From Gloeomargarita sp. SKYB120 (GTDB lineage: Bacteria; Cyanobacteriota; Cyanobacteriia; Gloeomargaritales; Gloeomargaritaceae): a DNA stretch of 57,755 nt. Under the pieces are notes generated by a model. That model ran no database searches and was not told the DNA's origin. It saw nothing but the letters and a program-made list of their open reading frames with translations. The position numbers and the translations under genes are program-made. Location: contig JANXAM010000007.1 in the NCBI GenBank assembly GCA_025062155.1, forward strand, positions 22,464 to 80,218. The letters run 5' to 3'. Position 1 is the first letter of the stretch; the number at the start of each line of letters is the position of its first letter. This document shows, in pieces, positions 12,590-28,411 of the stretch.

Positions 12590-13648
12590 ATGATCATTGT
12601 GATGCAGCCCGGCGCGCCGGAACTGGAAATTGAGCGGATTAGCGAAGAACTACGTTCTTGGGGATTAAATCCTGAAAAGATTGTTGGGCAGTACAAGGTC
12701 GTGATTGGGCTGGTGGGGGAAACCGCCCAACTGCAACCAGAACGCATTCAGGAACTCAGTCCCTGGATCGAAGATGTGGTGCGGGTAGAACAACCCTTTA
12801 AGCGGGCCAGCCGCGAGTATCGCCACGGGCAACCCAGCGAAATTGCGGTAGAAACCCCCAACGGCACGGTGGTCTTCGGGGAAACGCAGCCGGTGGTGGT
12901 CGTTGCCGGTCCTTGCTCGGTGGAAAACGAGGAAATGATTGTGGAAACGGCGCTGCGGGTGAAGGCGGCGGGTGCCAAGATGTTGCGAGGCGGCGCTTAC
13001 AAGCCCAGGACATCGCCCTATGCGTTCCAGGGCCACGGCGAGAGCGCATTGGAGCTGCTGGCCATCGCGCGGGCCGCCTCTGGGTTGGGGGTGATTACCG
13101 AGGTCATGGATGCCGCCGATATTGAGAAAGTGGCGCAAGTGGCGGACGTACTACAAGTGGGTGCCCGCAACATGCAGAATTTTTCCCTGCTGAAGAAAAT
13201 TGGCGCCCAGGACAAGCCGGTGCTGTTGAAGCGGGGGATGTCGGCCACGATTGAGGAGTGGTTGATGGCGGCAGAGTACATCCTGGCGGCGGGCAACCCC
13301 AAAGTCATTTTGTGCGAGCGGGGCATTCGCACGTTTGACCATCGTTACACCCGTAACACTTTGGATTTAGCGGCCATCCCCGTACTGCGTAAACTCACGC
13401 ACCTGCCCATCATGATTGACCCAAGCCACGGTACAGGTAAATCCGAGTACGTCCCAGCGATGGCAATGGCGGCGATTGCGGCAGGAGCAGATGCCCTAAT
13501 GATTGAGGTGCACCCCAATCCTGCCAAAGCGCTCTCCGATGGTCCCCAATCCCTGACGCCCGAACGCTTTGACCGGTTGATGCGCGAAGAACTAGCGGTG
13601 ATTGGGCAAGCGGTAGGTCGTTGGCCCAAGGTGCCGGTGGCGGTGTAG
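12590..13648 (+). CDS. aroF: 3-deoxy-7-phosphoheptulonate synthase (DAHP synthase, type I-beta)
   Basis: First enzyme of the shikimate pathway; joins phosphoenolpyruvate and erythrose-4-phosphate. 352 residues: an N-terminal ferredoxin-like regulatory domain (about 1-70), then a TIM barrel with the hallmark [35 protein letters not shown] and IDPSHGTG motifs, the last including metal- and PEP-binding residues. ATG 12590. A TACAAT hexamer at 12551-12556 could be its -10 box. It is the last ordinary gene before the vWA-tubulin cluster. Confidence 0.93.
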
Positions 13649-13710
13649 GGCTTGCCTTTGCAGTACAGACCGAGAGCAGCTAGTTTAGGGTAGAAGGCTT
13701 TTAAATACCT

Positions 13711-13721: not shown

Positions 13722-14759
13722 ATGCCTGATTCCATCGTTCCTGGCAACCGTCCCCTGTCTGCGTGGCAACAAAGGGCGCTTGCGTGGGTTGGTCGCTGGG
13801 GCGGTCGCGATGTGGTGCTGGCTGTTGACCTCACAGAAAGCGTGGGTCTGAACGATGCAGGGCGGCTTCACCTGCGCCAGATTGTGGAGAAAACTTTAGT
13901 CAAAGGGCATAACTTGCACGTCATTCCTTTTGCGACCGGCGTACACGCTCCTAAGGTCTTTCGCTACCAGGGCCCCGAAGATATTCCCAAAATCTTGGCC
14001 GCGGTGCCCATGAGTCCCGGACCCGAACGGGGAACCGATATCAAATGCGCGGAACTTGCGATTTATCGGTATCTAGCAGAGCTGAATCAGCAGCGTCTGC
14101 AACAAGGTCAACCCATTAAAGCCCAGTCGGTCGTCTGGGTGACCGACGCCCCCTTGCATCTTCCCCAAGGCAAGGAGTGGGTAGAAGCACCCAACAGTCC
14201 TTGCGGCTTGGCTGGTCAGCCCCTCGCTGTGGAGCGCGACCGCTGGCTGGCGGTGCTCCCTATGTCCTTACGCCAGATGCCAGTTGGTCAGTTCCAGCTT
14301 ACTGTGGTGGACATCGCTCCCACTGTCCAGGAGTTCTGCACCCCCAGACCTGGTGGAGGCGAAGTCTGTTTGGTCAACAATTACCTGTGGGGACAGCTTT
14401 GGTGGCAGTTGCTGCTGGGAGGCATCCTTGGCCTTGCCGCCAGTCTGGGTGGAGTCTGGTCCTTAGTGCGATGGGTGCGCCAGCAGATTCCTTGGCCCAT
14501 TACTATTCAGGTCAATGACCAGGAATACCCTTTCAAGCTTAGGCACGGTCAAAAAATAGACCTCGGTGTTGATGTAACCTTGCCAGTCATGCAAACGGTG
14601 GGCCGCATTCAACGCTATCACCAAACACTCAAAATTGCTGCTTTTGACGAAGGTCTCTCCTACAACGGTCAGCCGATTGTGAGCTCTGTTACGATACCTT
14701 ACCGCCAGCGGATGGTTTGCTTGTCTTACAGGGACGAGACGATTAAAATTAGCTGGTAG
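13722..14759 (+). CDS. Membrane-anchored von Willebrand factor A protein (cluster gene 1)
   Basis: 345 residues. Residues 30-215 form a vWA domain: MIDAS-type metal residues are visible as D36-x-T38-x-S40 (VDLTES), T105-D106 in RGTDIK, and D142 in WVTDAPLH. The DxTxS form replaces the common DxSxS but can still bind Mg2+. One transmembrane helix lies at about 226-248, followed by a beta-rich C-terminal domain of about 95 residues. Three cysteines occur at the end of the vWA part. There is no N-terminal signal, so sidedness is open. vWA domains mediate metal-dependent protein contacts. It is first in a same-strand run with the tubulin-, MotA- and MotB-like genes, 22 bp before the next start. 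Its composition is like resident genes, unlike the following three. Confidence 0.8.
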   Translation: MPDSIVPGNRPLSAWQQRALAWVGRWGGRDVVLAVDLTESVGLNDAGRLHLRQIVEKTLVKGHNLHVIPFATGVHAPKVFRYQGPEDIPKILAAVPMSPGPERGTDIKCAELAIYRYLAELNQQRLQQGQPIKAQSVVWVTDAPLHLPQGKEWVEAPNSPCGLAGQPLAVERDRWLAVLPMSLRQMPVGQFQLTVVDIAPTVQEFCTPRPGGGEVCLVNNYLWGQLWWQLLLGGILGLAASLGGVWSLVRWVRQQIPWPITIQVNDQEYPFKLRHGQKIDLGVDVTLPVMQTVGRIQRYHQTLKIAAFDEGLSYNGQPIVSSVTIPYRQRMVCLSYRDETIKISW

Positions 14760-14781: not shown

Positions 14782-17700
14782 ATGACTAGCGCTCACAATG
14801 AAGATTTGCTAAGAGTTACGCGAGTTCTCTGTGTAGGGATAGGAGGAACAGGGGCGAAAGTACTGGAGCGAGTTAGACGCATCATTGTTGATGAATTTGG
14901 GTCTTTGTCAGCTTTGCCAATTGTTGGTTTCGTTTACATTGATACAGACGGTGGTGTGCATCTTTTGCCCTATCGGGGGCAGTCCATTGATTTCACGCCA
15001 GCGGAGAAATTACACATTTCCGTGTCCCATCACGTTGTGAATCAGTTTAAGGAAAACTACGAGCAACGCTGCCAAAATCCTTATCTTAGTACGCCAGATG
15101 ACCATATTTTTGAATGGTTTCCCAGTGGCCTAATTCGCAATCTCAGTACCATTGAGAATGGTGCGGGCGCGATACGAGCTATTGGTCGCTTGGCACTGTT
15201 TAAAAACTATGAAAAAATTAAGGAATCTTTGACAAACGCCTACGCTCGGGTGAACACAGCCGATGTAGCAGCACTTATCGAGCGTGGTATTGCAGTTAGC
15301 CCCGGTCTTCGTGTGTTTGTTGTGGGCTCACTTTGCGGTGGAACAGGTAGTGGGATTTTCTTGGACATCGGCTATATTCTCCGCCGTCAATTCGAGTCTA
15401 ACGTGGGGTCATTTGAGAGTCATGCTTACTTTGTCATCAGTCCGGAGCTTTATGCCAGCAAGGAAGATGTAAAAGCCAACTGTTATGCGGCTTTGAAGGA
15501 ACTTGATTACTATAGTCGTCCTGGTACGCTCTTTCATGCGAATTATCCCGGAGAGCCCCCCTTCTCCGAAATGCGTCCGCCCTATGACTTTGTGTATTTG
15601 ATTTCCAACTCCACGCCTGATGGTGCCTTTATCATTCCTGCTGGCGACCCAGATGCGATGGGTAAAATTGCGTATACAATTGCCCAGAAGATATGTCTCT
15701 TCTTCATAAGTAGTGAAACAGCTCGAGCAGCTATTTCTGCGCGAGACAACCTGGCGAAAAATGCAATCGCTATGAACTATTTTGACAAACATCCAAGACC
15801 TAATTGCCAAGCTTACATGACAACTGGGTTAGCTACCATCTACTTTCCTCAAGACAAGATCAACCAGCAAGCTGTCAATAAAGCGAAGATTATTTTACTG
15901 GAGTTTTGGAGGAGTGGCTCGGGACAAAAGCCAACGCAAGGTGAGATGCGCCAAGCATTCGCCAATCGCTGCGAATGGAAAACTAGCGAGTTAGAGGACT
16001 TTTTGCGCCGTCGCATCCAAGAAGTTAAAGTGGAAGGGGCAACGGTGCCCGAGCTGATAAGGCGCTGGCAGCAATTACAAGAAGGCCAAATTAATGCAGC
16101 GGCTAGACGTGCCGAGCAGGATGACCTAGTGACACAGCTACCCCAGCGGTTTGAAAGCTTGTTACGCTTGGTCAAGTTGGCCGACAATAGTCGTGAGAGG
16201 GGTGCTTGGTTGACATCTTTGGTAGACCAGCTACCTGATATCATCCGCGATATTGTAGTCAGTATTGAAAGGTTTTTAGAGCAAATTTTAAGACCTGAAG
16301 ATCAGTTTTTTGGGATAGAGAATGCACTGAACTGGTTGCAAGGACTCAAGCTAGAACTTGAGCGTATACGCGTACAGCCGTTAGATGACCGCTTTCAGGA
16401 TACGGAAAGAAGATGTCAGGAAGTTACTGTTCAGATGCAGAATGAGATTAGAGCAATTAGGAGTCAATGGTGGCCGTATGGCAGGGTTGCTAGAATCCAG
16501 AATGCCCTTCGCAGAGCAGTTGAACAAGTTGCCCAACTTGCTCGGCGCAACTACCAATGGCAGGTAGAGCGCTTGGTGCGACAAGCAGCGGAAGGACTCA
16601 TTGAGTATGTGGACGTCAGGACTCTCTCTTTGAATGAGTTTGATGAAAGTCTTCAAGAGTTAATATCCTTCTTTCAGAGAGAAGCAAAAAGTTTAGTAGA
16701 CAAGGGTGGCCAGGAGCGAATTGGTCTGGCAATTGATAGTCCGGCTGATGTTGAAGAAGTCTTACGGGAGCTTCTTCCTGCTAAAGAGCAGGAGCGTCGT
16801 CAGCGAATGAATCAGATTTCCGCTGAAATGATACGTGATCTGGCTAGCTTAGATGCAGATGAGAGACCTAGCTTGAGAAGGGTACTGCAGCCTCGTCCAT
16901 CGCGCGAAGAGATGCGTGAAGCGCTGGACCGAGAGATGGAGGCAAGAGCCGCTCGAATAAATAGAGAGTTGCGTAAATCAGCCATCCAGCGTTTCATAGA
17001 ATTAGGCGATAGAGAAAAGTTAATGGAGCACCTACGGAACCTGAAGCATCAGTCTGACATCCTGCTGCCGCTTAGATTTGGTGATAATTATTATGAAGAC
17101 AAAACCAGCAAACGAGTCTCCATCATTGCCTTTCACAGACCTCCAGCAAGAGATGACCCTTATGTTAGCCGTTTCGAAGAGCTGCTGAGAAGTGTCGGCT
17201 GGCTGGAAGGCACTCAGATATGTGAGTTACCTGAGTCCGAACAGCATCAAGTTATCTTCATGACCGAGTATGCAGCTTTTCCTTTACGGATCATTAATGA
17301 TCTAACTTCTAAGAGCTTACGGTTTACCTACCAGGAAAAGACTAGATTGTCAGGTCAGGATTCCCTACATACTAACCGTAGTATCGCCTTTTCAGATATT
17401 TTGCCCCCGAGTGACGCTATCGTTAAGGAAGTCCAAGCCTTGTTCTTCAAATGTCTTGGCTTAGATGTGTTTGAGCTGGAAGGTGACAATCTGGTTGTTT
17501 CTGTTGAGGACAATCTTGGTTTCAGAGAAAGGATTTCTCTAGGAAATGACTGGTCTGCTGTGATTGATAATCTGAGCTGGATACAAGGTAACAGAGCAAC
17601 CCCTGACGGGCGCGGGCTAACAGATTTTCTGCGGGATGAATTGAGAAGAAAGATAGACTATTTCGTGAATAATCCAGACGAATGGCAAGGCCAGCGGCAG

Positions 17701-17934
17701 AGGATTATAGAGAAAATTCAGGACATACGTAGCTACCCTGAGGACCACATCAACCACGCCATGGTTCCAATTGTAGCTGGCAAAGGGATAGGAAGTATAA
17801 CTGATGTAGCTAGAAAAGGAATTTTGGAACAGCTGATAGAGGAGATAGATAACCGTATTAGGGAGTGTTCATCCTTAGTACTCCCGGGCTCTCAGCAGGA
17901 AAAACAATTGCCGGAGGCCCGAGACCATGACTAA
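14782..17934 (+). CDS. Giant tubulin/FtsZ-like GTPase with long helical tail (cluster gene 2)
   Basis: About 1050 residues. The N-terminus has VLCVGIGGTGAKVLERV (GGTG at 21-24), the nucleotide-loop pattern of FtsZ/tubulin, and VGSLCGGTGSGIFLDIGYIL, where CGGTGSG (185-191) corresponds to the tubulin/FtsZ G-box GGGTGxG that binds GTP phosphates. This fits the 'tubulin-like' (Tubulin_2) family. The first ~430 residues look globular; about 430-800 is highly charged and helical, probably coiled coil; the C-terminal ~250 residues look folded again. FtsZ itself is about 400 residues, so most of this protein is extra. ATG 14782 is preferred over TTG 14764. The 3' end overlaps the MotA-like gene by 8 bp. 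DNA is A+T-rich: 23 of 60 bases from 17281 are G or C. Polymerisation and GTPase activity are inferred. Confidence 0.85.
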   Translation: MTSAHNEDLLRVTRVLCVGIGGTGAKVLERVRRIIVDEFGSLSALPIVGFVYIDTDGGVHLLPYRGQSIDFTPAEKLHISVSHHVVNQFKENYEQRCQNPYLSTPDDHIFEWFPSGLIRNLSTIENGAGAIRAIGRLALFKNYEKIKESLTNAYARVNTADVAALIERGIAVSPGLRVFVVGSLCGGTGSGIFLDIGYILRRQFESNVGSFESHAYFVISPELYASKEDVKANCYAALKELDYYSRPGTLFHANYPGEPPFSEMRPPYDFVYLISNSTPDGAFIIPAGDPDAMGKIAYTIAQKICLFFISSETARAAISARDNLAKNAIAMNYFDKHPRPNCQAYMTTGLATIYFPQDKINQQAVNKAKIILLEFWRSGSGQKPTQGEMRQAFANRCEWKTSELEDFLRRRIQEVKVEGATVPELIRRWQQLQEGQINAAARRAEQDDLVTQLPQRFESLLRLVKLADNSRERGAWLTSLVDQLPDIIRDIVVSIERFLEQILRPEDQFFGIENALNWLQGLKLELERIRVQPLDDRFQDTERRCQEVTVQMQNEIRAIRSQWWPYGRVARIQNALRRAVEQVAQLARRNYQWQVERLVRQAAEGLIEYVDVRTLSLNEFDESLQELISFFQREAKSLVDKGGQERIGLAIDSPADVEEVLRELLPAKEQERRQRMNQISAEMIRDLASLDADERPSLRRVLQPRPSREEMREALDREMEARAARINRELRKSAIQRFIELGDREKLMEHLRNLKHQSDILLPLRFGDNYYEDKTSKRVSIIAFHRPPARDDPYVSRFEELLRSVGWLEGTQICELPESEQHQVIFMTEYAAFPLRIINDLTSKSLRFTYQEKTRLSGQDSLHTNRSIAFSDILPPSDAIVKEVQALFFKCLGLDVFELEGDNLVVSVEDNLGFRERISLGNDWSAVIDNLSWIQGNRATPDGRGLTDFLRDELRRKIDYFVNNPDEWQGQRQRIIEKIQDIRSYPEDHINHAMVPIVAGKGIGSITDVARKGILEQLIEEIDNRIRECSSLVLPGSQQEKQLPEARDHD

Positions 17935-19681
17935 CTCAGTCCTACAAGTTATTGGTCAGGCTGTTCAATCTCCCTTGACACTACCTTGGATTCTACTGTC
18001 ATCAGGACTCGCCATCCTTAGCGTTTTGTTGCGTCTACTACTTTTTCGGAAGCTGGAATCGCTGATAGGGTGGGCTCGAGAACCATCGACGTCAGAGTAT
18101 GTTCCCCAGCTTGTCCGTAAGCTCGAGATAAAGGTTAGTAGGTTTTTACAAAGTCATGATGAGGTCAACACATCGGCTCTAATAGAGCGTGAATTAGCTG
18201 ATGAACCATTGCTTCATAAGCTTTCCCTGGAAAAAGCTGAGTATGTTACTGGGGTTGTACCTAACCTTTTAATTGCTGTAGGGCTATTGGGTACCTTTCT
18301 AGGAATAGCAATTAGTCTGAATGCAGTTAGGGATACTCTCGCTAGGCCTGACCTTAACTTGGCTGATCTTACCAGCGAGCTTAGCAAGCAGATAGATGGA
18401 ATGACCGTCGCCTTCATTTCGAGTTTAGTCAGCTTACTTTGGGGCATTATACTGGTTGTAGTTAATAGTATCTGGAACACGACAATAGCCCGAAGGAAGC
18501 TTTTTGCGAACTTAGAAATTCTTCTAGACCATGAGTTAGAAATTCAAGACCGCAGTCCCACAACAAGACTGATTCGATCAATAGAAAACAATTTTAGGGT
18601 TTTTCTGGATAGCTTTTATGAAACTGTCCGCAGTGCCATAGAAAAGCCCCTAGAGCGGCAGATAGGCAACTTGACAGAGTTAAACCGAGAGAACGCGGAA
18701 CTGGCACGACAAATCTATATCCACTTCGGCAATGCTGCTGGCAACCTTCTAACTGGGGCCAACACTTTTCAGACGGCAGCTCAAATTCTCTCTGACAGCC
18801 AGTTTGCAGAGAAAGTAAGTGCAGCTGCCACCCAAGCTTCACAATTTACTAACCAGCTTATTGCTATAACCCATTCTTCCCTGCAGCTCAACAGCACTGT
18901 TGCAGAACTTAATCAGAAAGTAGAAAGTTTAATAGAAATAGTAAACCAAAGCCAGATTGATTTTCAACGGGTTGTTCAAGACATCAAGTCAGCAGCGGAG
19001 ACATTTACTCACATTCGTGACGTAGCACACCACCTGCTAGAACGAGTTAGAGAAGCACAAGGAGAAATTATTGCCAGTTCGAGTGAGTTATCTCAGGTTG
19101 CATTAAAACTAAGTGACGCAACGGCCACCTTACACGCTGCTCGAGAGAACCTGTCTGAATGTGTTCAAAGTCTTCAGTCTATCCAAGAAGAAGTTAGCCA
19201 AAATAGGAAGCAAATTGAAAACCAGAACCAACTACTCAACCAGGAGTTAGGGTCTATTAGACAGGGGCTTGAGCAGTACAAGGAGCAGCGCTTTACCTGG
19301 GAGCGTGGCTACAGTGAGCTGCTGTCTCATCTTCAGCAACAGCTAAATCAATTGACGAATAAAATCTCCGGTGTGGAGCAATATTTGCAGGAACTTAATA
19401 GTTTTGCTCACCAGCTAATTAACCAGGAGTTAGTGTCCATTAAAAATGGGCTTGAACAGTACAAGGACCAGCGTCTCACCTGGGAGCATGAGTACGGTGA
19501 GCTGCTGTCAAACCTGCAGCAAAAGTTAAGCAAGTTGACGAATGAAACAGCAGATATTAAGCAGTGTTTGCAGGAACTTAGGAATTTTGCTTACCAGTTG
19601 GACACGCGAGTTTCATCTCAAGCAAGCACACAGACCAATGAAGGAAAGTCTTTCCGCCCACCCTGGAGAAGAACCCCCTAG
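17927..19681 (+). CDS. MotA/TolQ/ExbB (ZorA-like) channel protein with long coiled tail (cluster gene 3)
   Basis: 584 residues. Hydrophobic helices at about 20-40, 108-131 and 159-180. The VPNLLIAVGLLGTFLGIAIS segment and GMTVAFISSLVSLLWGIIL are the conserved pore helices of the MotA/TolQ/ExbB family, which form pentamers around a MotB/TolR/ExbD dimer and conduct H+ or Na+. Residues from about 185 to the end form a long charged helical tail, which is the feature that distinguishes ZorA of Zorya defence from flagellar MotA. Near the C-terminus a 61-residue unit is repeated in tandem. It starts 8 bp inside the tubulin gene, so translation is coupled. The C-terminus is basic and Pro-rich. Confidence 0.87.
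   Translation: MTNSVLQVIGQAVQSPLTLPWILLSSGLAILSVLLRLLLFRKLESLIGWAREPSTSEYVPQLVRKLEIKVSRFLQSHDEVNTSALIERELADEPLLHKLSLEKAEYVTGVVPNLLIAVGLLGTFLGIAISLNAVRDTLARPDLNLADLTSELSKQIDGMTVAFISSLVSLLWGIILVVVNSIWNTTIARRKLFANLEILLDHELEIQDRSPTTRLIRSIENNFRVFLDSFYETVRSAIEKPLERQIGNLTELNRENAELARQIYIHFGNAAGNLLTGANTFQTAAQILSDSQFAEKVSAAATQASQFTNQLIAITHSSLQLNSTVAELNQKVESLIEIVNQSQIDFQRVVQDIKSAAETFTHIRDVAHHLLERVREAQGEIIASSSELSQVALKLSDATATLHAARENLSECVQSLQSIQEEVSQNRKQIENQNQLLNQELGSIRQGLEQYKEQRFTWERGYSELLSHLQQQLNQLTNKISGVEQYLQELNSFAHQLINQELVSIKNGLEQYKDQRLTWEHEYGELLSNLQQKLSKLTNETADIKQCLQELRNFAYQLDTRVSSQASTQTNEGKSFRPPWRRTP
19238..19603 (+). repeat. Tandem 183-bp repeat inside the MotA-like gene
   Basis: Two in-frame units start at 19238 and 19421, a period of 183 bp or 61 codons. 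Both begin NQEL, contain GLEQYK, TWE, and GELL or SELL, and end CLQEL or YLQEL then FAHQL or FAYQL. Protein-level identity is high while third positions have diverged, so the duplication is not recent and has been kept under selection. It lengthens a coiled-coil tail by exactly one unit. Confidence 0.85.
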
Positions 19682-19734: not shown

Positions 19735-20406
19735 ATGCACCGTCAACGTCGCCGCTCTCTGGCACAGGTAGAAGAGCTGAATATCTGGATGTCTTTCACC
19801 GACCTGATGTCGGGGAGTCTTCTAATTTTTAGCCTGCTTCTATTTTTACTAGTTGGCTCACTCCACCAGAGTCGAAACAACGTAGGCCAGCAATCTGACG
19901 AAGTACCCCCTATTATTGTCATCCCAGACAACGAGGCATTTCGTTTCCCAGTGGGTAGTGCAGAACTATCTAGCGCCTTACGACAGTACATTTGGGAAGA
20001 TTTAGTTGAAAAAATCATAGCCAATCGTCGGCGCTTTGGCATTGATACGATTGAAATTATTGGTCACACAGACGGTCAGCCAAATCGGGGTGCTCGCAGT
20101 AACTTGGATATGTTGTTGGAAGTGTCAGCAGCAACAAACACTCTGCAGCGGCTTACGCCTGGTTCCAACGTAGACCTTGGCTTAATGCGGGCGTTGGCGA
20201 TTGCAAATGAGCTGCATAAAATACAGGCCCAAAGACCAGAGCTAGAAGAATTGAAAGGATTAAATTTCCGGGCTTACTCAGCAGGACAACTGTACTTACC
20301 CACCGGAGAAATTGCTCCTCCTGACCGCAGTAATGACTCTAGCCGCCGCCGGATTGAAGTGCGTTTTACCCGTCTGGGACGAGTTGAGAAAGCTGTGAGT
20401 CAATAG
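19735..20406 (+). CDS. MotB/ZorB-like stator protein with OmpA peptidoglycan-binding domain (cluster gene 4)
   Basis: 223 residues. A basic cytoplasmic start is followed by one transmembrane helix (about 22-42) opening with FTDLMSGSLL; Asp23 is at the position of the ion-carrying aspartate of MotB/ZorB. After a linker, residues 70-215 form an OmpA-type domain: IIGHTDGQPN, then SNLDMLLEVSAATN, a L-x-x-x-RA helix, and the closing SRRRIEVRF, where the Asp and Arg residues bind meso-diaminopimelate of peptidoglycan. This would anchor the channel to the cell wall. Lies 53 bp after the MotA-like gene. ATG 19735. TolR/ExbD lack an OmpA domain, so MotB/ZorB is the better comparison. Confidence 0.87.
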   Translation: MHRQRRRSLAQVEELNIWMSFTDLMSGSLLIFSLLLFLLVGSLHQSRNNVGQQSDEVPPIIVIPDNEAFRFPVGSAELSSALRQYIWEDLVEKIIANRRRFGIDTIEIIGHTDGQPNRGARSNLDMLLEVSAATNTLQRLTPGSNVDLGLMRALAIANELHKIQAQRPELEELKGLNFRAYSAGQLYLPTGEIAPPDRSNDSSRRRIEVRFTRLGRVEKAVSQ

Positions 20407-24120: not shown

Positions 24121-25239
24121 ATGGACGCTGCCACGGCGACCGCTCCTTTCCAGGACATGGCGATTTTGATCGTGGACGATTCCCCCAGCCAACGGCTGTC
24201 GTTGGTGGCACTCCTGAAGGCGGCGGGTTTCCGGCACCTGTACACCTGCGATGACGCCGAAAGCGCGTTTGCCCTGTTGCGACAGCAGCCAGTGGATTTG
24301 ATCCTGATGGACGTGAGTATGCCCCGCCTCAACGGCATCGAAGCCTGTCGTCTCCTCAAGGGCCAGCCGGAATTCCACGATATTCCCATCATCATGGTCA
24401 CCGCCAGCGTCGAAGTCTCCAACCTGGAATCAGCCTTTGAGGCGGGCGCCACTGATTACATTGTCAAACCGCCCCACCAGGTTGAACTGCTGGCCCGCGT
24501 GCGTGCGAGCTTGCGCCTCAAGTACGAGACCGACCAGCGCAAAGCCAGAGAAGTGGAACTGCGGCAGGCCCTGGCCTCTCTAGACGAACAACACCGGTTG
24601 CTGCGGCTAGAGCAGGAAAAGTCCGAGCGCCTGTTGCTGAACATCCTTCCCAAACCGGTGGCGGAGCGTCTTAAACAGGGGCAGCAGGTGATTGCTGATG
24701 ATTTTCCGGCGGTGACGGTGCTGTTTGCTGATATTGTGGATTTCACGTCACTAGCGGCGCGGATGCCCGCCCAGGAGGTGGTAGCCCTGCTGAACGCGGT
24801 GTTTTCCCGGTTTGACCAGTTGGCGGAACGGCATGGCCTGGAAAAAATCAAAACGATTGGGGATGCCTACATGCTGGTGGGGGGCTTGCCCACGCCTCGA
24901 CCCGACCATGCCGCCGCAGTGGCCGCCTTCGCCTTAGATGTCCTGCAGATGCTGCAGGCGGACGAGCAGACCAGACAACTGCTGCGGGTGCGCATCGGGA
25001 TGCACTCGGGGCCAGTGGTGGCGGGCGTCATTGGCACCAAAAAGTTCATCTACGACCTGTGGGGGGATACGGTCAACACCGCCAGCCGGATGCAAATGGT
25101 CGCAGCGCCCAACACCATCCAGGTCTCGGAAGCCACTTACCACCTGCTCAAGGCGGACTTTCTCCTGCAGGAACGGGGCGTAGTGCCGGTCAAGGGCAAG
25201 GGCGAGATGCGAGTGTACTACCTGCTAGGTCGTCGCTAG
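24121..25239 (+). CDS. Response regulator-adenylate cyclase
   Basis: 372 residues. REC domain at 14-130 with acidic pocket (VDD, 18-20), phospho-acceptor Asp64 in LMDVSMPRLNG and Lys116 in VKPP. A coiled linker (135-185) leads to a class III cyclase domain: LLNILPKPVAERL signalling helix, metal-binding Asp204 (FADIVDFTS) and Asp248 (IGDAYM), purine-selecting Lys242 and Asp312 (YDLWGDTVN), and transition-state Asn319 and Arg323. The Lys/Asp pair predicts ATP rather than GTP as substrate, hence cAMP output. Activation by phosphorelay from an unlinked kinase is likely. Its stop overlaps the stop of the convergent CHASE2 kinase by 4 bp. Confidence 0.88.
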   Translation: MDAATATAPFQDMAILIVDDSPSQRLSLVALLKAAGFRHLYTCDDAESAFALLRQQPVDLILMDVSMPRLNGIEACRLLKGQPEFHDIPIIMVTASVEVSNLESAFEAGATDYIVKPPHQVELLARVRASLRLKYETDQRKAREVELRQALASLDEQHRLLRLEQEKSERLLLNILPKPVAERLKQGQQVIADDFPAVTVLFADIVDFTSLAARMPAQEVVALLNAVFSRFDQLAERHGLEKIKTIGDAYMLVGGLPTPRPDHAAAVAAFALDVLQMLQADEQTRQLLRVRIGMHSGPVVAGVIGTKKFIYDLWGDTVNTASRMQMVAAPNTIQVSEATYHLLKADFLLQERGVVPVKGKGEMRVYYLLGRR

Positions 25240-27305
25240 GGCGTCAAGGGAATCTGGGCCAAGGCCGCATCCAGGGCCAGGGCATCGGGATAACGCTGGC
25301 TGGGGTCTTTGGCTAGGCAACGCCGGAGCACCGCCAGCAACGGTTGACCCTCCAGCCAGGGCAAGGGCAGAGGTTCCTGGTGCTGGTGAGCGTCGCACCA
25401 GGCGTGAAAGGTGGCCGTGTCGCCACAGGGATAGGGGTAATGGCCGGCAATCAACCGGTAGAGCAGCACCCCCAAGCTATAGACATCGGCGCTCGGTTGG
25501 GCGGTCCCGCCGCAGAATAGTTCGGGGGCGGTGTAGGGTAAGCTGGCGCGGCTGGCCCCCAGCGTAGTATTCGCCGTGGTTTCGTTGATCCAAGGCGTGA
25601 GACCGAAATCCAAGATTTTCACCAGTTCATGGCCGCCACTGGGGAGACCCGTGGGAATGAGAAAGATATTTGCGGGTTTCAGGTCCTGATGCACCCACCC
25701 CTGCTGATGGGCTGGCGCCAATCCTTGGCAAATTTGCCGCACCAGATGCACCGCTTGGGACACCGCCAGGCGGGGGTGTTCTCGCAACCGTTGCTGGAGA
25801 CTGCAGCCCGGGAAATACTCCCGCACATAGAACAGAAATCCTTCATGGGTCAACCCAAAATCCAGGATTTGCATTAGGTGCAAGCTGTTGAGGGCCACGT
25901 AACGCTGGACCTGGGCTGCAAAGGTCTGCAGGAGTTCCTGGCGACGCTGGGGTGATGGCGTTAGCTTGAGTACCCGCACCACCACTGTCTTACCCACCCG
26001 CTGGTCCTGGGCAGCGTACACCCAGCTCAATTCGTCCTGGCTAAGCAAGTGCGCTGTGACGTAGCGGCCCTGGGGGTCAATCACGCTTGCCAGGGGGCGA
26101 GACGAACGCCGTCGCCAAACGGCTAAGGGACGGGGCAATCCCCACCAGACCCCCATGCCGCTCAGAGCGTAGGCGACCAGGGGAGCCACCAGCGGTATCC
26201 AGCCGCCCGCCCAGCTTGCCACTAGCGTCGTACCGAGCAGGAGACCGGTCGCCGCCAGGGGTTCGGGACCCCACCGCCGTTGGGCCCGCCACCCGATGCC
26301 GGCACCCACACTGCTCCAAAGCAGCAACCACAGTCCTTGCCCCCACAGGGGCCAGCTCCAGGGCCAAGATTCGCCCGCTAGCACCGCTTGCAGCACCTGC
26401 GCCGTCGTCTGGGCGTGGAACTGCACCGACGGCAACGGCCCCAGCGGCGTCAGCACCGGCTTTTCGGTCCCTTCGGCATAGCCCACCAGCACCACCCGCT
26501 GGCGCAGCGGTACCGGCGTTGTGCCCTGGAGCACTTGGGTCATGGTCACCACCGGCGCGAGGGAGCTTGGACGCCGGTAACGCAGTAGCACCTGATATCC
26601 CGCCGCATCCAGTCGGCGATAGGCGGCGCTGTAGGGCGTCAAGGACGGCATCACTGTCCGCTGGATTTGCAACTGCTGCTGGGGCGTCACGCGCAAGGGA
26701 TAGCCCTGCTGTTCCAAGTAACGCAACGCCGTCAGAAACCCCAGGGCATAACGCGCCGGACAGGTGCGGGCTGGCGGCTCGGGCGAGGGTTGGACGTACA
26801 ACACCTGGCGGCGCACCACCCCATCTGCATCCGGCACCACATCGGCAAAACCCACCACCGCCACCGGCTCCTGCAATCCCGGCGGCGGCAAGATGCCCCG
26901 TCCCTGCTCATCCGGCAAAAAGCACGTGAGCACGATATGGCCCTGGGGCGCCTGGGCCCGTTGATTCACCAATTGCACCAACCGCCGTTGCGCCCGTCGT
27001 TCCCCGACCGGCACATCTCGGATCACGTCCACTCCGACAACCGCCGCCCCTTCCGCCAGTAACTTGCGCAGCAGGCGTTCCAGGTCCCTATCGGTGATGC
27101 GCGCTCGTTGCCCCAAATCCGCCGGCGTCAGGGCCACAATCACCAGCCGTGGTTCCGGCGGCACTGGGAGATGCCCTCGCAGGCGCAGGTCATAGGTCCA
27201 GGTCTCCAGACGCGTGAAGCCGCCCGCCATGTCCACCAGCCCAACGGCTATGGTGACGCCCGCCACTACGCCCCCCAAGCGCAGCCTCGTTAGAACCGTT
27301 GCCAC
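25236..27305 (-). CDS. CHASE2-domain Ser/Thr protein kinase
   Basis: About 689 residues from GTG 27305. An N-terminal helix, an extracytoplasmic CHASE2 sensor (about 30-310, with WTYDLRLRGHLP at the start), three membrane helices (about 325-400), then a cytoplasmic Hanks-type kinase (about 415-685). Kinase motifs: HQDLKPANIF catalytic loop (Gln replaces the Arg of HRD), DFGLTPW metal loop, APELF, and DVYSLGVLLY. The glycine-rich loop is poor (LLSQDELSWVYAA), while VVVRVLKL lacks an obvious AxK lysine, so catalytic strength is uncertain. The start overlaps the upstream solute-binding gene by 16 bp. Convergent with the cyclase gene. Confidence 0.82.
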   Translation of the reverse strand: MATVLTRLRLGGVVAGVTIAVGLVDMAGGFTRLETWTYDLRLRGHLPVPPEPRLVIVALTPADLGQRARITDRDLERLLRKLLAEGAAVVGVDVIRDVPVGERRAQRRLVQLVNQRAQAPQGHIVLTCFLPDEQGRGILPPPGLQEPVAVVGFADVVPDADGVVRRQVLYVQPSPEPPARTCPARYALGFLTALRYLEQQGYPLRVTPQQQLQIQRTVMPSLTPYSAAYRRLDAAGYQVLLRYRRPSSLAPVVTMTQVLQGTTPVPLRQRVVLVGYAEGTEKPVLTPLGPLPSVQFHAQTTAQVLQAVLAGESWPWSWPLWGQGLWLLLWSSVGAGIGWRAQRRWGPEPLAATGLLLGTTLVASWAGGWIPLVAPLVAYALSGMGVWWGLPRPLAVWRRRSSRPLASVIDPQGRYVTAHLLSQDELSWVYAAQDQRVGKTVVVRVLKLTPSPQRRQELLQTFAAQVQRYVALNSLHLMQILDFGLTHEGFLFYVREYFPGCSLQQRLREHPRLAVSQAVHLVRQICQGLAPAHQQGWVHQDLKPANIFLIPTGLPSGGHELVKILDFGLTPWINETTANTTLGASRASLPYTAPELFCGGTAQPSADVYSLGVLLYRLIAGHYPYPCGDTATFHAWCDAHQHQEPLPLPWLEGQPLLAVLRRCLAKDPSQRYPDALALDAALAQIPLTP

Positions 27306-28411
27306 TGTTTCTGCAACTCCGCCAGCACCGCCGACTGGGGCATAGGAAGTTGTTGCACAGGGGGCGTGGCCTGCACACCCGGAATCCCCTGCGCCCAAGG
27401 GCTACCCGGCACCTGCTCAACCGCCAGCTGAATGACTGGCCGAAAGCCCTGTTGCACAAACACCTGTTGCTGCTCCGGCGCCCGCAAAAAGGCGATGAAC
27501 GTTTCCGCCGCCCGCGCCAGTAGCGGAGAGACCCGTCGCCGCACCACCACAGCAGTAGAAACCGTCGCCACCGTTGGGCTGAAGTAATAGATTCGGTAGC
27601 CCTGACCCTGGGCGACCTGGGCCTGGGGCCAGCGACTCAGGGCAATGCTTTCGTAGACCACCGCCACATCCCCTTCGTTCGGCCCCTGGCTGATGAATTC
27701 CTCCAGTAGCAGGTCCGTGGACCGAGGGGGGCGATAGACCGAGGGTTTGAGCAATCGCAGCAGTTCGATTACCGGCGGGCTGTTGACATTGCTAGGAGTC
27801 AAGGGCTGGCCCAGCACCTGTTGCGACCAGAGCGCCAAGGTCAACTGGCCACTGTTGGAGCGTAGGGGGTCGGTCATGCGGAAGTCAAAACTCCCCCAGG
27901 CTGCTGGCCCACCCATCGCCGCCCATTGCCGTGCTCGCAGGGCTTGGGCCACCCGCTCCCAGTCAAAGCGTCCCTGGGGAAACAGCACCCGCCCACGCTC
28001 TGGCCAGGCAATCCCCACCATAAAGGTCGAAGCAATCGGCTGCGGTTTGCTCAAAAAAGGCTCGGTGTTTTCTCGCGCCCGCCAATCTTGCACGAGTTTT
28101 TCCAAAATTTCCTGATTCGCTGGGATCAAAATCGTGGGATGGAACCCCGCAAACGTGTCGTCCAAATAGTTATTCGCCAGCTCCTGAGAGCCTTGGAAAT
28201 GGAGTTCCAGTCGGATGTTAGGTTGCTGCTGTTCAAAGCGGGGGCGGAGCACCTCCAGCACCTGCCGCAATTCCGTACCCGCAACAACAACCAGCGTTTG
28301 GGAAACCCCTGGCAACGGTGCCCAGGTCAATATCAAACCCGCCGCCAAGATCCCCAAGGACAACAGCGTACGACGGCGCAATTGTTTCTGGTTGGGCAAG
28401 CGGGGGGTCAT
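27290..28411 (-). CDS. Extracytoplasmic solute-binding protein
   Basis: 373 residues with an N-terminal twin-arginine-like basic region (LRRRTLL) and hydrophobic helix at about 14-36, giving an exported or lipid-anchored protein. The rest has the two-lobed binding-protein pattern, beginning LVVVAGTELRQVLEVLRPRF with a later WGSFDFRMTDPLRSNSGQL hinge-like stretch, as in sulfate/iron/molybdate-type binding proteins. No permease or ATPase gene is adjacent. The downstream CHASE2 kinase overlaps it by 16 bp, so a sensory role, presenting a ligand to the kinase, is possible but only inferred. Confidence 0.7.
   Translation of the reverse strand: MTPRLPNQKQLRRRTLLSLGILAAGLILTWAPLPGVSQTLVVVAGTELRQVLEVLRPRFEQQQPNIRLELHFQGSQELANNYLDDTFAGFHPTILIPANQEILEKLVQDWRARENTEPFLSKPQPIASTFMVGIAWPERGRVLFPQGRFDWERVAQALRARQWAAMGGPAAWGSFDFRMTDPLRSNSGQLTLALWSQQVLGQPLTPSNVNSPPVIELLRLLKPSVYRPPRSTDLLLEEFISQGPNEGDVAVVYESIALSRWPQAQVAQGQGYRIYYFSPTVATVSTAVVVRRRVSPLLARAAETFIAFLRAPEQQQVFVQQGFRPVIQLAVEQVPGSPWAQGIPGVQATPPVQQLPMPQSAVLAELQKQWQRF

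Follow-up and report, generated by a model that had tools for sequence, protein, structure and literature searches.

What a tubulin-like GTPase about 2.5 times the size of FtsZ might do beside the genes of a membrane motor is the question raised by positions 14782-17934 of a 57,755-nucleotide stretch of the Gloeomargarita sp. SKYB120 genome (the whole of which is called the window here). The open reading frame (ORF) at this location, gene 2, is real, running from an ATG at 14782 to a stop codon at 17932-17934 and encoding 1050 residues. Its product belongs to the known FtsZl1/Tubulin_2 family, is predicted to hold a complete but interrupted tubulin fold, and is encoded in a conserved unit of four genes together with a protein combining a von Willebrand factor A (vWA) domain, a transmembrane (TM) helix and an FHA-like domain (gene 1) and with subunits resembling the Zorya motor proteins ZorA (gene 3) and ZorB (gene 4).

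The gene 2 protein has a predicted split tubulin fold

Pfam assigns residues 16-366 of the gene 2 protein to Tubulin_2 (PF13809, E 1.2e-76), with profile positions 1-348 of 356 covered and a score of 258.7 bits, so far above the cut-off of 27 that chance is excluded as the source of the likeness to tubulin. Full-length relatives were found in many cyanobacteria. The protein has no Pfam match to FtsZ_C, and the FtsZ of the same genome is encoded elsewhere, in an open frame of 428 residues with an FtsZ_C domain; the gene 2 product is thus not the cell-division FtsZ of this organism. The parts of gene 2 referred to below are the following.

14782..17934, + strand: gene 2, tubulin-like GTPase (FtsZl1/Tubulin_2), 1050 residues (Pfam, AlphaFold2 model, Foldseek, VIA-align)
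14809..15933, + strand: GTPase core and first elements of the second tubulin domain, residues 10-384 (model, alignment)
14836-14853, + strand: T1 loop, GIGGTG (alignment)
15325-15354, + strand: T4 loop, GSLCGGTGSG (alignment)
15934..17091, + strand: predicted helical, highly charged insert of ~390 residues, residues 385-770 (DSSP; spanned by the VIA alignments)
17092..17415, + strand: predicted rest of the second (C-terminal) tubulin domain, residues ~771-878 (VIA tubulin alignments to residues 12..878)
17416..17931, + strand: C-terminal extension past the tubulin fold, residues 879-1050, the final 18 disordered (model)

An AlphaFold2 model was built from 36 relatives and is confident (mean predicted local distance difference test score, pLDDT, 84.7; predicted template modelling score, pTM, 0.73). 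Foldseek returned CetZ and tubulins as the best matches of this model, and VIA-align superposed it on CetZ (3zid; Z 22.4, 304 of 342 residues, root-mean-square deviation 4.0), on tubulins (Z ~20, ~350 of ~430 residues), on FtsZ (2vxy; Z 19.5, 275 of 306 residues) and, with a Z of 19.4 similar to that of other superfamily members, on TubZ (4xcq). The aligned span of the model runs from residue 12 to 834-878 and covers the tubulin chains from 1 to ~434, and both tubulin domains are therefore present in the model. Searching the sequences of solved structures with the protein, and also with its alignment, returned only coiled-coil chance matches, so the assignment of the fold rests on the predicted model; when aligned by profile with cyanobacterial FtsZ, the protein can be matched only from about T3 to S5, and neither T7 nor the second domain is placed. 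The gap in the structural alignments falls between the helix at 357-378 and the strand at 778-784 (DSSP), indicating that in the model a helical insert of ~390 residues splits the second tubulin domain, the placing of single elements around it being a reading of secondary structure. The insert ranges from 382 to 395 residues across the 20 orthologs aligned; in the SKYB120 protein, 34% of residues 385-770 are charged and nearly all are helical in the model, including a single helix of 72 residues at 569-640.

The nucleotide loops are strongly conserved. G19, G21, G22 and G24 of T1 (GxGGTG) and the G186-G191 block of T4 (GGTG[ST]G) are invariant across the 36 relatives, and D322, within a near-invariant R321-D322-N323, is a candidate for the acidic residue of the T7 loop, D335 being a second, also strongly conserved candidate. 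A preliminary description of this stretch had placed GGTG at residues 21-24 and CGGTGSG at residues 185-191, read them as loops spaced as in tubulin and FtsZ, and pointed to a charged, coiled stretch past the GTPase region of a protein 2.5 times as long as FtsZ. All of this agrees with the translated ORF, with the length of the genome's own FtsZ and with the model, which aligns with CetZ, tubulin and FtsZ at Z 19-22 across nearly the whole fold. Its view of the last 600 and more residues as a tail needs revision, since the model places the rest of the second tubulin domain inside them, at ~771-878, and what surrounds it is mainly insert and C-terminal extension.

Relation to the FtsZl1 family as described in 2010

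As described in 2010, the FtsZl1 proteins of Makarova and Koonin have an N-terminal GTPase domain, a long coiled coil and a helical C-terminus in ~1050 residues, lie beside genes for vWA-domain and OmpA-domain proteins, and co-occur with a normal FtsZ (PMC2875224). The SKYB120 locus resembles this account in each respect, with a helical, coiled region and a helical C-terminal part in a protein of the same length, vWA- and OmpA-domain neighbors, and a normal FtsZ elsewhere in the genome. Because the architecture and its neighbors were already described, the gene 2 protein is a member of FtsZl1/Tubulin_2 and not of a new family, and the earlier suggestion of a new kind of tail-extended FtsZ is not supported.

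Two features set the locus apart from that account. The OmpA-domain gene here is of the ZorB/MotB type and is accompanied by its own ZorA-type channel gene, and the model shows a second tubulin domain and a whole-fold match, whereas the 2010 analysis failed to identify T6-H7 or a related C-terminal domain (PMC2875224). The main text of that paper does not mention a ZorA-type motor subunit, and the words MotA, TolQ, ExbB, proton and FHA are absent from it. In the open-licence literature, the scope of which falls short of proof, no paper was found that links Tubulin_2/FtsZl1 to ZorA or MotA, and no experimental role for the family was found in the literature since 2010. Beyond the 2010 account, then, the locus adds an association with a ZorAB-type motor, a predicted tubulin fold that is complete although split, and a Cys residue that marks the clade.

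Gene 2 belongs to a four-gene unit with ZorA-like and ZorB-like subunits

The genes encoded alongside gene 2 are listed below; genes 2 and 3 overlap by 8 nt.

13722..14759, + strand: gene 1, vWA-TM-FHA-like protein (AlphaFold2 model, VIA, alignment, hydropathy)
17927..19681, + strand: gene 3, ZorA-like motor subunit (PADLOC ZorA2, profile to 8VVN)
19735..20406, + strand: gene 4, ZorB-like subunit (PADLOC ZorB1, profile to 8VVN)

The gene 3 product matches PADLOC ZorA2 (E 1.8e-12) and, by profile, the solved ZorA of 8VVN (E 6.6e-9). It has three TM segments, the conserved motifs PNLL..GL.GTF.G and M..AF.[TS]S, and then a coiled-coil cytoplasmic tail of ~390 residues; the GTF.G motif was found in 71 of 77 ZorA-like sequences. 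The gene 4 product matches PADLOC ZorB1 (E 1.2e-14) and the solved ZorB of 8VVN (E 5.4e-7), as well as MotB/PomB, and carries an invariant D23 at the start of its single TM segment, followed by an OmpA/peptidoglycan-binding domain. Judged by sequence only, its motifs are [TS]DLM, which includes the TM aspartate (67 of 72), GHTD (72/72), SN.DL...R (72/72) and RRR.E.RF (70 of 72). The preliminary description had supposed that such a protein might couple a filament to a membrane motor; association with motor genes, at least, is what the locus displays, the ZorA-like and ZorB-like genes lying directly downstream in a conserved set.

By sequence the gene 1 product has no Pfam match, vWA included, and its alignment found no match among solved sequences, so that the identities of its domains rest on the AlphaFold2 model (pLDDT 86). 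In this model a vWA domain at ~24-193 (Z 10.1 over 132 residues, to the vWA domain of CLCA1; VIA) is followed by Cys206 and Cys216, a single TM helix at ~231-249 and a C-terminal FHA-fold domain at 256-345 (Z 11.2 over 84 residues; VIA). A motif resembling the metal ion-dependent adhesion site (MIDAS), D36-x-T38-x-S40, and the Cys pair before the TM helix are invariant in the alignment, in which the usual FHA motifs G-R and S-x-x-H are not evident. Basic residues after the TM helix suggest that the FHA-like domain is cytoplasmic; a signal-peptide-like start of the protein in the corresponding position in Deinococcus (see below) is likewise a guide to topology.

Conservation of the unit was assessed in 80 named cyanobacterial loci, 65 of which are uncut by a contig end near the genes; reclassing two more changes nothing. 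All four genes are present in 63 of the 65, the tubulin-like gene standing alone in the other two, and gene order is constant in the loci read gene by gene, with variation among the genes further out. Across the phylum, 35 of 292 sampled genomes carry a tubulin of the clade described in the next section, and every one of the 35 also has the vWA gene and at least part of the ZorB gene. In one genome the vWA-tubulin pair lies apart from a ZorB-like gene. For ZorAB-like pairs free of the tubulin, a single exchangeable partner set was considered and rejected, as the neighbors vary between genomes (L157 and L159 adjoin kinases, L162 a DEDDh-exonuclease/NTPase), and the modularity of these pairs is only suggested. 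The L162 pair (L162:4877-10564), from a cyanobacterium, lies away from the tubulin operon and adjoins a 777-residue DEDDh-exonuclease/NTPase protein, a neighbor not shared by the related L163.

A similar order of genes recurs outside the Cyanobacteria. Four Deinococcus plasmids encode, in this order, a protein of gene 1-like layout, a small protein, and tubulin-like, ZorA-like and ZorB-like proteins. The first of these has a signal-peptide-like start and a TM segment, and was likened to gene 1 by inspection of its layout, not by a profile match; in D. radiophilus an IS630 transposase follows the tubulin frame. The ZorAB-linked Deinococcus tubulins (L174, L195, L196, L198) have odd nucleotide loops, GMGSTG or GLGSTG, with TLCGGTCSG in L174, and because of these unusual loops their handling of GTP may differ. 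A different variant is found on Thermales plasmids, where RecQ, exonuclease or HEPN genes neighbor a set encoding a vWA protein, a tubulin-like protein, a protein of unknown kind and BrxL. On the plasmids of Thermus oshimai, Meiothermus taiwanensis and Allomeiothermus silvanus (L172, L197, L199), the vWA, Tubulin_2, ~680-residue unknown and brxL genes stand together, a cluster that possibly represents a tubulin-containing defence array. On plasmid p2 of Azospirillum sp. TSA2s (L173), a Tubulin_2 gene lies among OmpA-family, DUF4384 and caspase-family genes.

A Cys residue in the T4 loop marks the motor-linked clade

The preliminary description had also proposed that the Cys of LCGGTGSG marks a subfamily, a proposal that is borne out. 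All 20 aligned orthologs and all 79 named loci, two sets that overlap, have Cys before GGTGSG, and Ser, Ala or Asn takes this position in 15 of 16 paralogs; in the tubulin tree the LCGGTGSG clade has support 96/99. The very long Deinococcus branch of this tree means that a single origin of the tubulin-ZorAB link is neither shown nor excluded.

The paralogous cyanobacterial FtsZl1 loci, one of which lies in the SKYB120 genome itself (L033, contig C3:75021-77705), belong to the same family and carry their insert at a matching position in the alignment. In contrast to the clade, they usually have SGGTGSG or AGGTGSG at T4 and adjoin neither ZorAB nor the FHA-type vWA gene, their contexts (e.g. L033, L060 and L061) featuring instead a periplasmic binding protein, another vWA protein or a Ser/Thr kinase.

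The unit behaves as an accessory system

Among the seven genomes of the genus Gloeomargarita, a Tubulin_2 paralog is present in all seven, whereas an intact member of the clade is present in two (47% identity), is cut by a contig end in one and is decayed in one. In three relatives DNA homology to the window ends at 13647-13649, right after the gene preceding the operon; in the closest relative it runs as far as 14285, a point within gene 1 at which the contig of that relative stops. A relic operon persists in a congener (L204:6761-9486) as the last ~110 residues of the tubulin followed by ZorA-like and ZorB-like sequences, and frameshifted or split copies occur in several genomes. This distribution suits an accessory system within the genus. 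A phage origin was considered and rejected, as a search of 50,697 phage records returned no match and, by fold, the best-matching viral proteins are ordinary phage tubulins. Elsewhere in the window, the ORF at 25236-27398 (- strand) resembles, judged by eye, a CHASE2-type sensor fused to a Ser/Thr protein kinase.

Comparison with Zorya and with vWA force transducers

The closest parallel to genes 3 and 4 is Zorya, in which the binding of ZorB to peptidoglycan, ion flow and the ZorA tail are each required for defence, the ZorB Asp and the peptidoglycan-binding residues are important, and the motor is thought to respond to disturbance of the envelope by phage (PMC11890865). Like the Zorya ZorAB complexes (8VVN, 8VVI, 8QYD), the unit encodes a ZorA-like channel protein with a long coiled coil and, next to it, a ZorB-like protein with a TM Asp and a peptidoglycan-binding domain. 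Its partners differ, being a tubulin-like GTPase and a vWA-TM-FHA-like protein; PADLOC found no match to ZorC, ZorD or ZorE among the four operon proteins, and EH_Signature (ZorC) is absent from the SKYB120 genome, for which reasons the unit should not be filed as Zorya, although it may function in the manner of that system's motor half. ZorC is present in 7 of 20 tested carriers, but away from the operon. A second parallel is offered by vWA proteins encoded beside TolQ-type motor genes, which have been proposed to act as motor-driven force transducers, in a class of 5:2 motors that also power gliding (PMC12204202). There too a vWA membrane protein is genetically linked to a 5:2-type motor, but the locus described here has a separate ZorB-like stator partner, a tubulin-like gene and a different order of domains around vWA.

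A proposed motor coupled to a tubulin-like scaffold and its alternatives

The analogy with Zorya, the similarity to ZorA and ZorB, the Tubulin_2 and whole-fold matches, the conserved four-gene set and the similar order in Deinococcus, the overlap of genes 2 and 3 and the accessory distribution lead us to propose that a motor driven by ions and anchored to peptidoglycan is coupled to a tubulin-like scaffold and acts in the response to envelope stress or phage, a proposal whose chances we put at about even. The tubulin-like protein would form the cytoplasmic part of a four-protein accessory device, in which the ZorB-like subunit (peptidoglycan anchor, TM aspartate) and the ZorA-like subunit (pentamer-type channel, long coiled coil) would assemble into an ion-driven motor of 5:2 stoichiometry. 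A ligand or partner would be bound, probably on the periplasmic side, at the MIDAS site of the vWA-TM-FHA-like protein, which would pass the signal inward through its FHA-like domain. As ions passed through ZorAB, the ZorA tail would be turned or pulled, and its movement would act on a GTP-dependent assembly of the tubulin-like protein beneath the membrane, engaging or remodelling it. Such a device would most likely serve, as Zorya does, to respond when the envelope is damaged or a phage enters, with the tubulin-like and vWA proteins standing where Zorya has its effectors. The fuller version, in which a ZorAB-type proton motor, a tubulin-family scaffold and a vWA-FHA-like relay are physically coupled in Cyanobacteria and on Deinococcus plasmids and serve, separately from Zorya, against phage or envelope stress, is put forward more tentatively, as somewhat less probable than the general proposal.

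Several observations weigh against the proposed stress or phage response motor. The tubulin tree tracks cyanobacterial taxonomy fairly well, unlike that of a fast-moving defence system. The flanks in the window look like housekeeping genes (pyrG-like, rpsO-like, a PAM68 homologue, DAHP-synthase-like and dnaG) with no defence island, and such a context was accordingly not used as support. By plain Pfam the OmpA match of gene 4 is weak (E 0.045). Finally, about a dozen genomes have strong ZorB homologues and lack a tubulin of the LCGGTGSG clade, so the ZorAB-like motor does not need the tubulin.

The housekeeping flanks and mostly vertical inheritance would sit well with membrane remodelling, the role proposed for FtsZl1 in 2010 (PMC2875224). 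Here FtsZl1 would polymerise at the inner membrane and shape it, as remodelling or vesicle machinery, the vWA and OmpA proteins would hold the complex to the envelope, and the motor would supply force with no part in phage defence. The vWA-type and OmpA-type partners at the locus and the complete tubulin fold of the model also favor this explanation, but patchy presence across the phylum and decayed copies, including the relic in one congener, argue against a basic cell function, and by profile the closest homologues of the motor are those of Zorya; we consider it possible but unlikely. That the genes are mere neighbors, the ZorAB-like pair being an independent motor and the vWA protein the sole partner of the tubulin-like protein, as at the paralogous vWA-tubulin-kinase loci, is improbable. 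Paralogs beside a vWA protein, periplasmic binding protein or kinase without ZorAB, ZorAB-like pairs without a tubulin, and the genome in which the vWA-tubulin pair and the ZorB-like gene lie apart would fit such independence, but not the near-complete retention of the set in uncut loci, the recurrence of the tubulin-ZorA-ZorB order in Deinococcus, or the overlap of genes 2 and 3. A device for surface motility or trans-envelope force, in which the ZorAB-like proteins drive either a track or the vWA protein while the tubulin-like protein provides an internal scaffold, would draw on the force-transducer and gliding precedents and on the many filamentous hosts, as filamentous cyanobacteria glide, but it is improbable in view of the TM helix and FHA-like domain that follow vWA in gene 1, unlike in the described transducers, and of several unicellular hosts, e.g. 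Microcystis and Chroococcus.

Tubulin-family proteins are familiar as filaments of the cytoskeleton, and the known targets of ion-driven 5:2 motors are flagella, the outer membrane or defence effectors. Should the proposed motor and scaffold indeed be coupled, a conserved gene set that unites them would represent a novel route by which proton-motive force reaches a cytoskeletal polymer. The split tubulin fold carries a structural hypothesis, in which the ZorA tail might make contact with the tubulin-like protein through the helical insert, and the motor link would give the FtsZl1 family a testable role.

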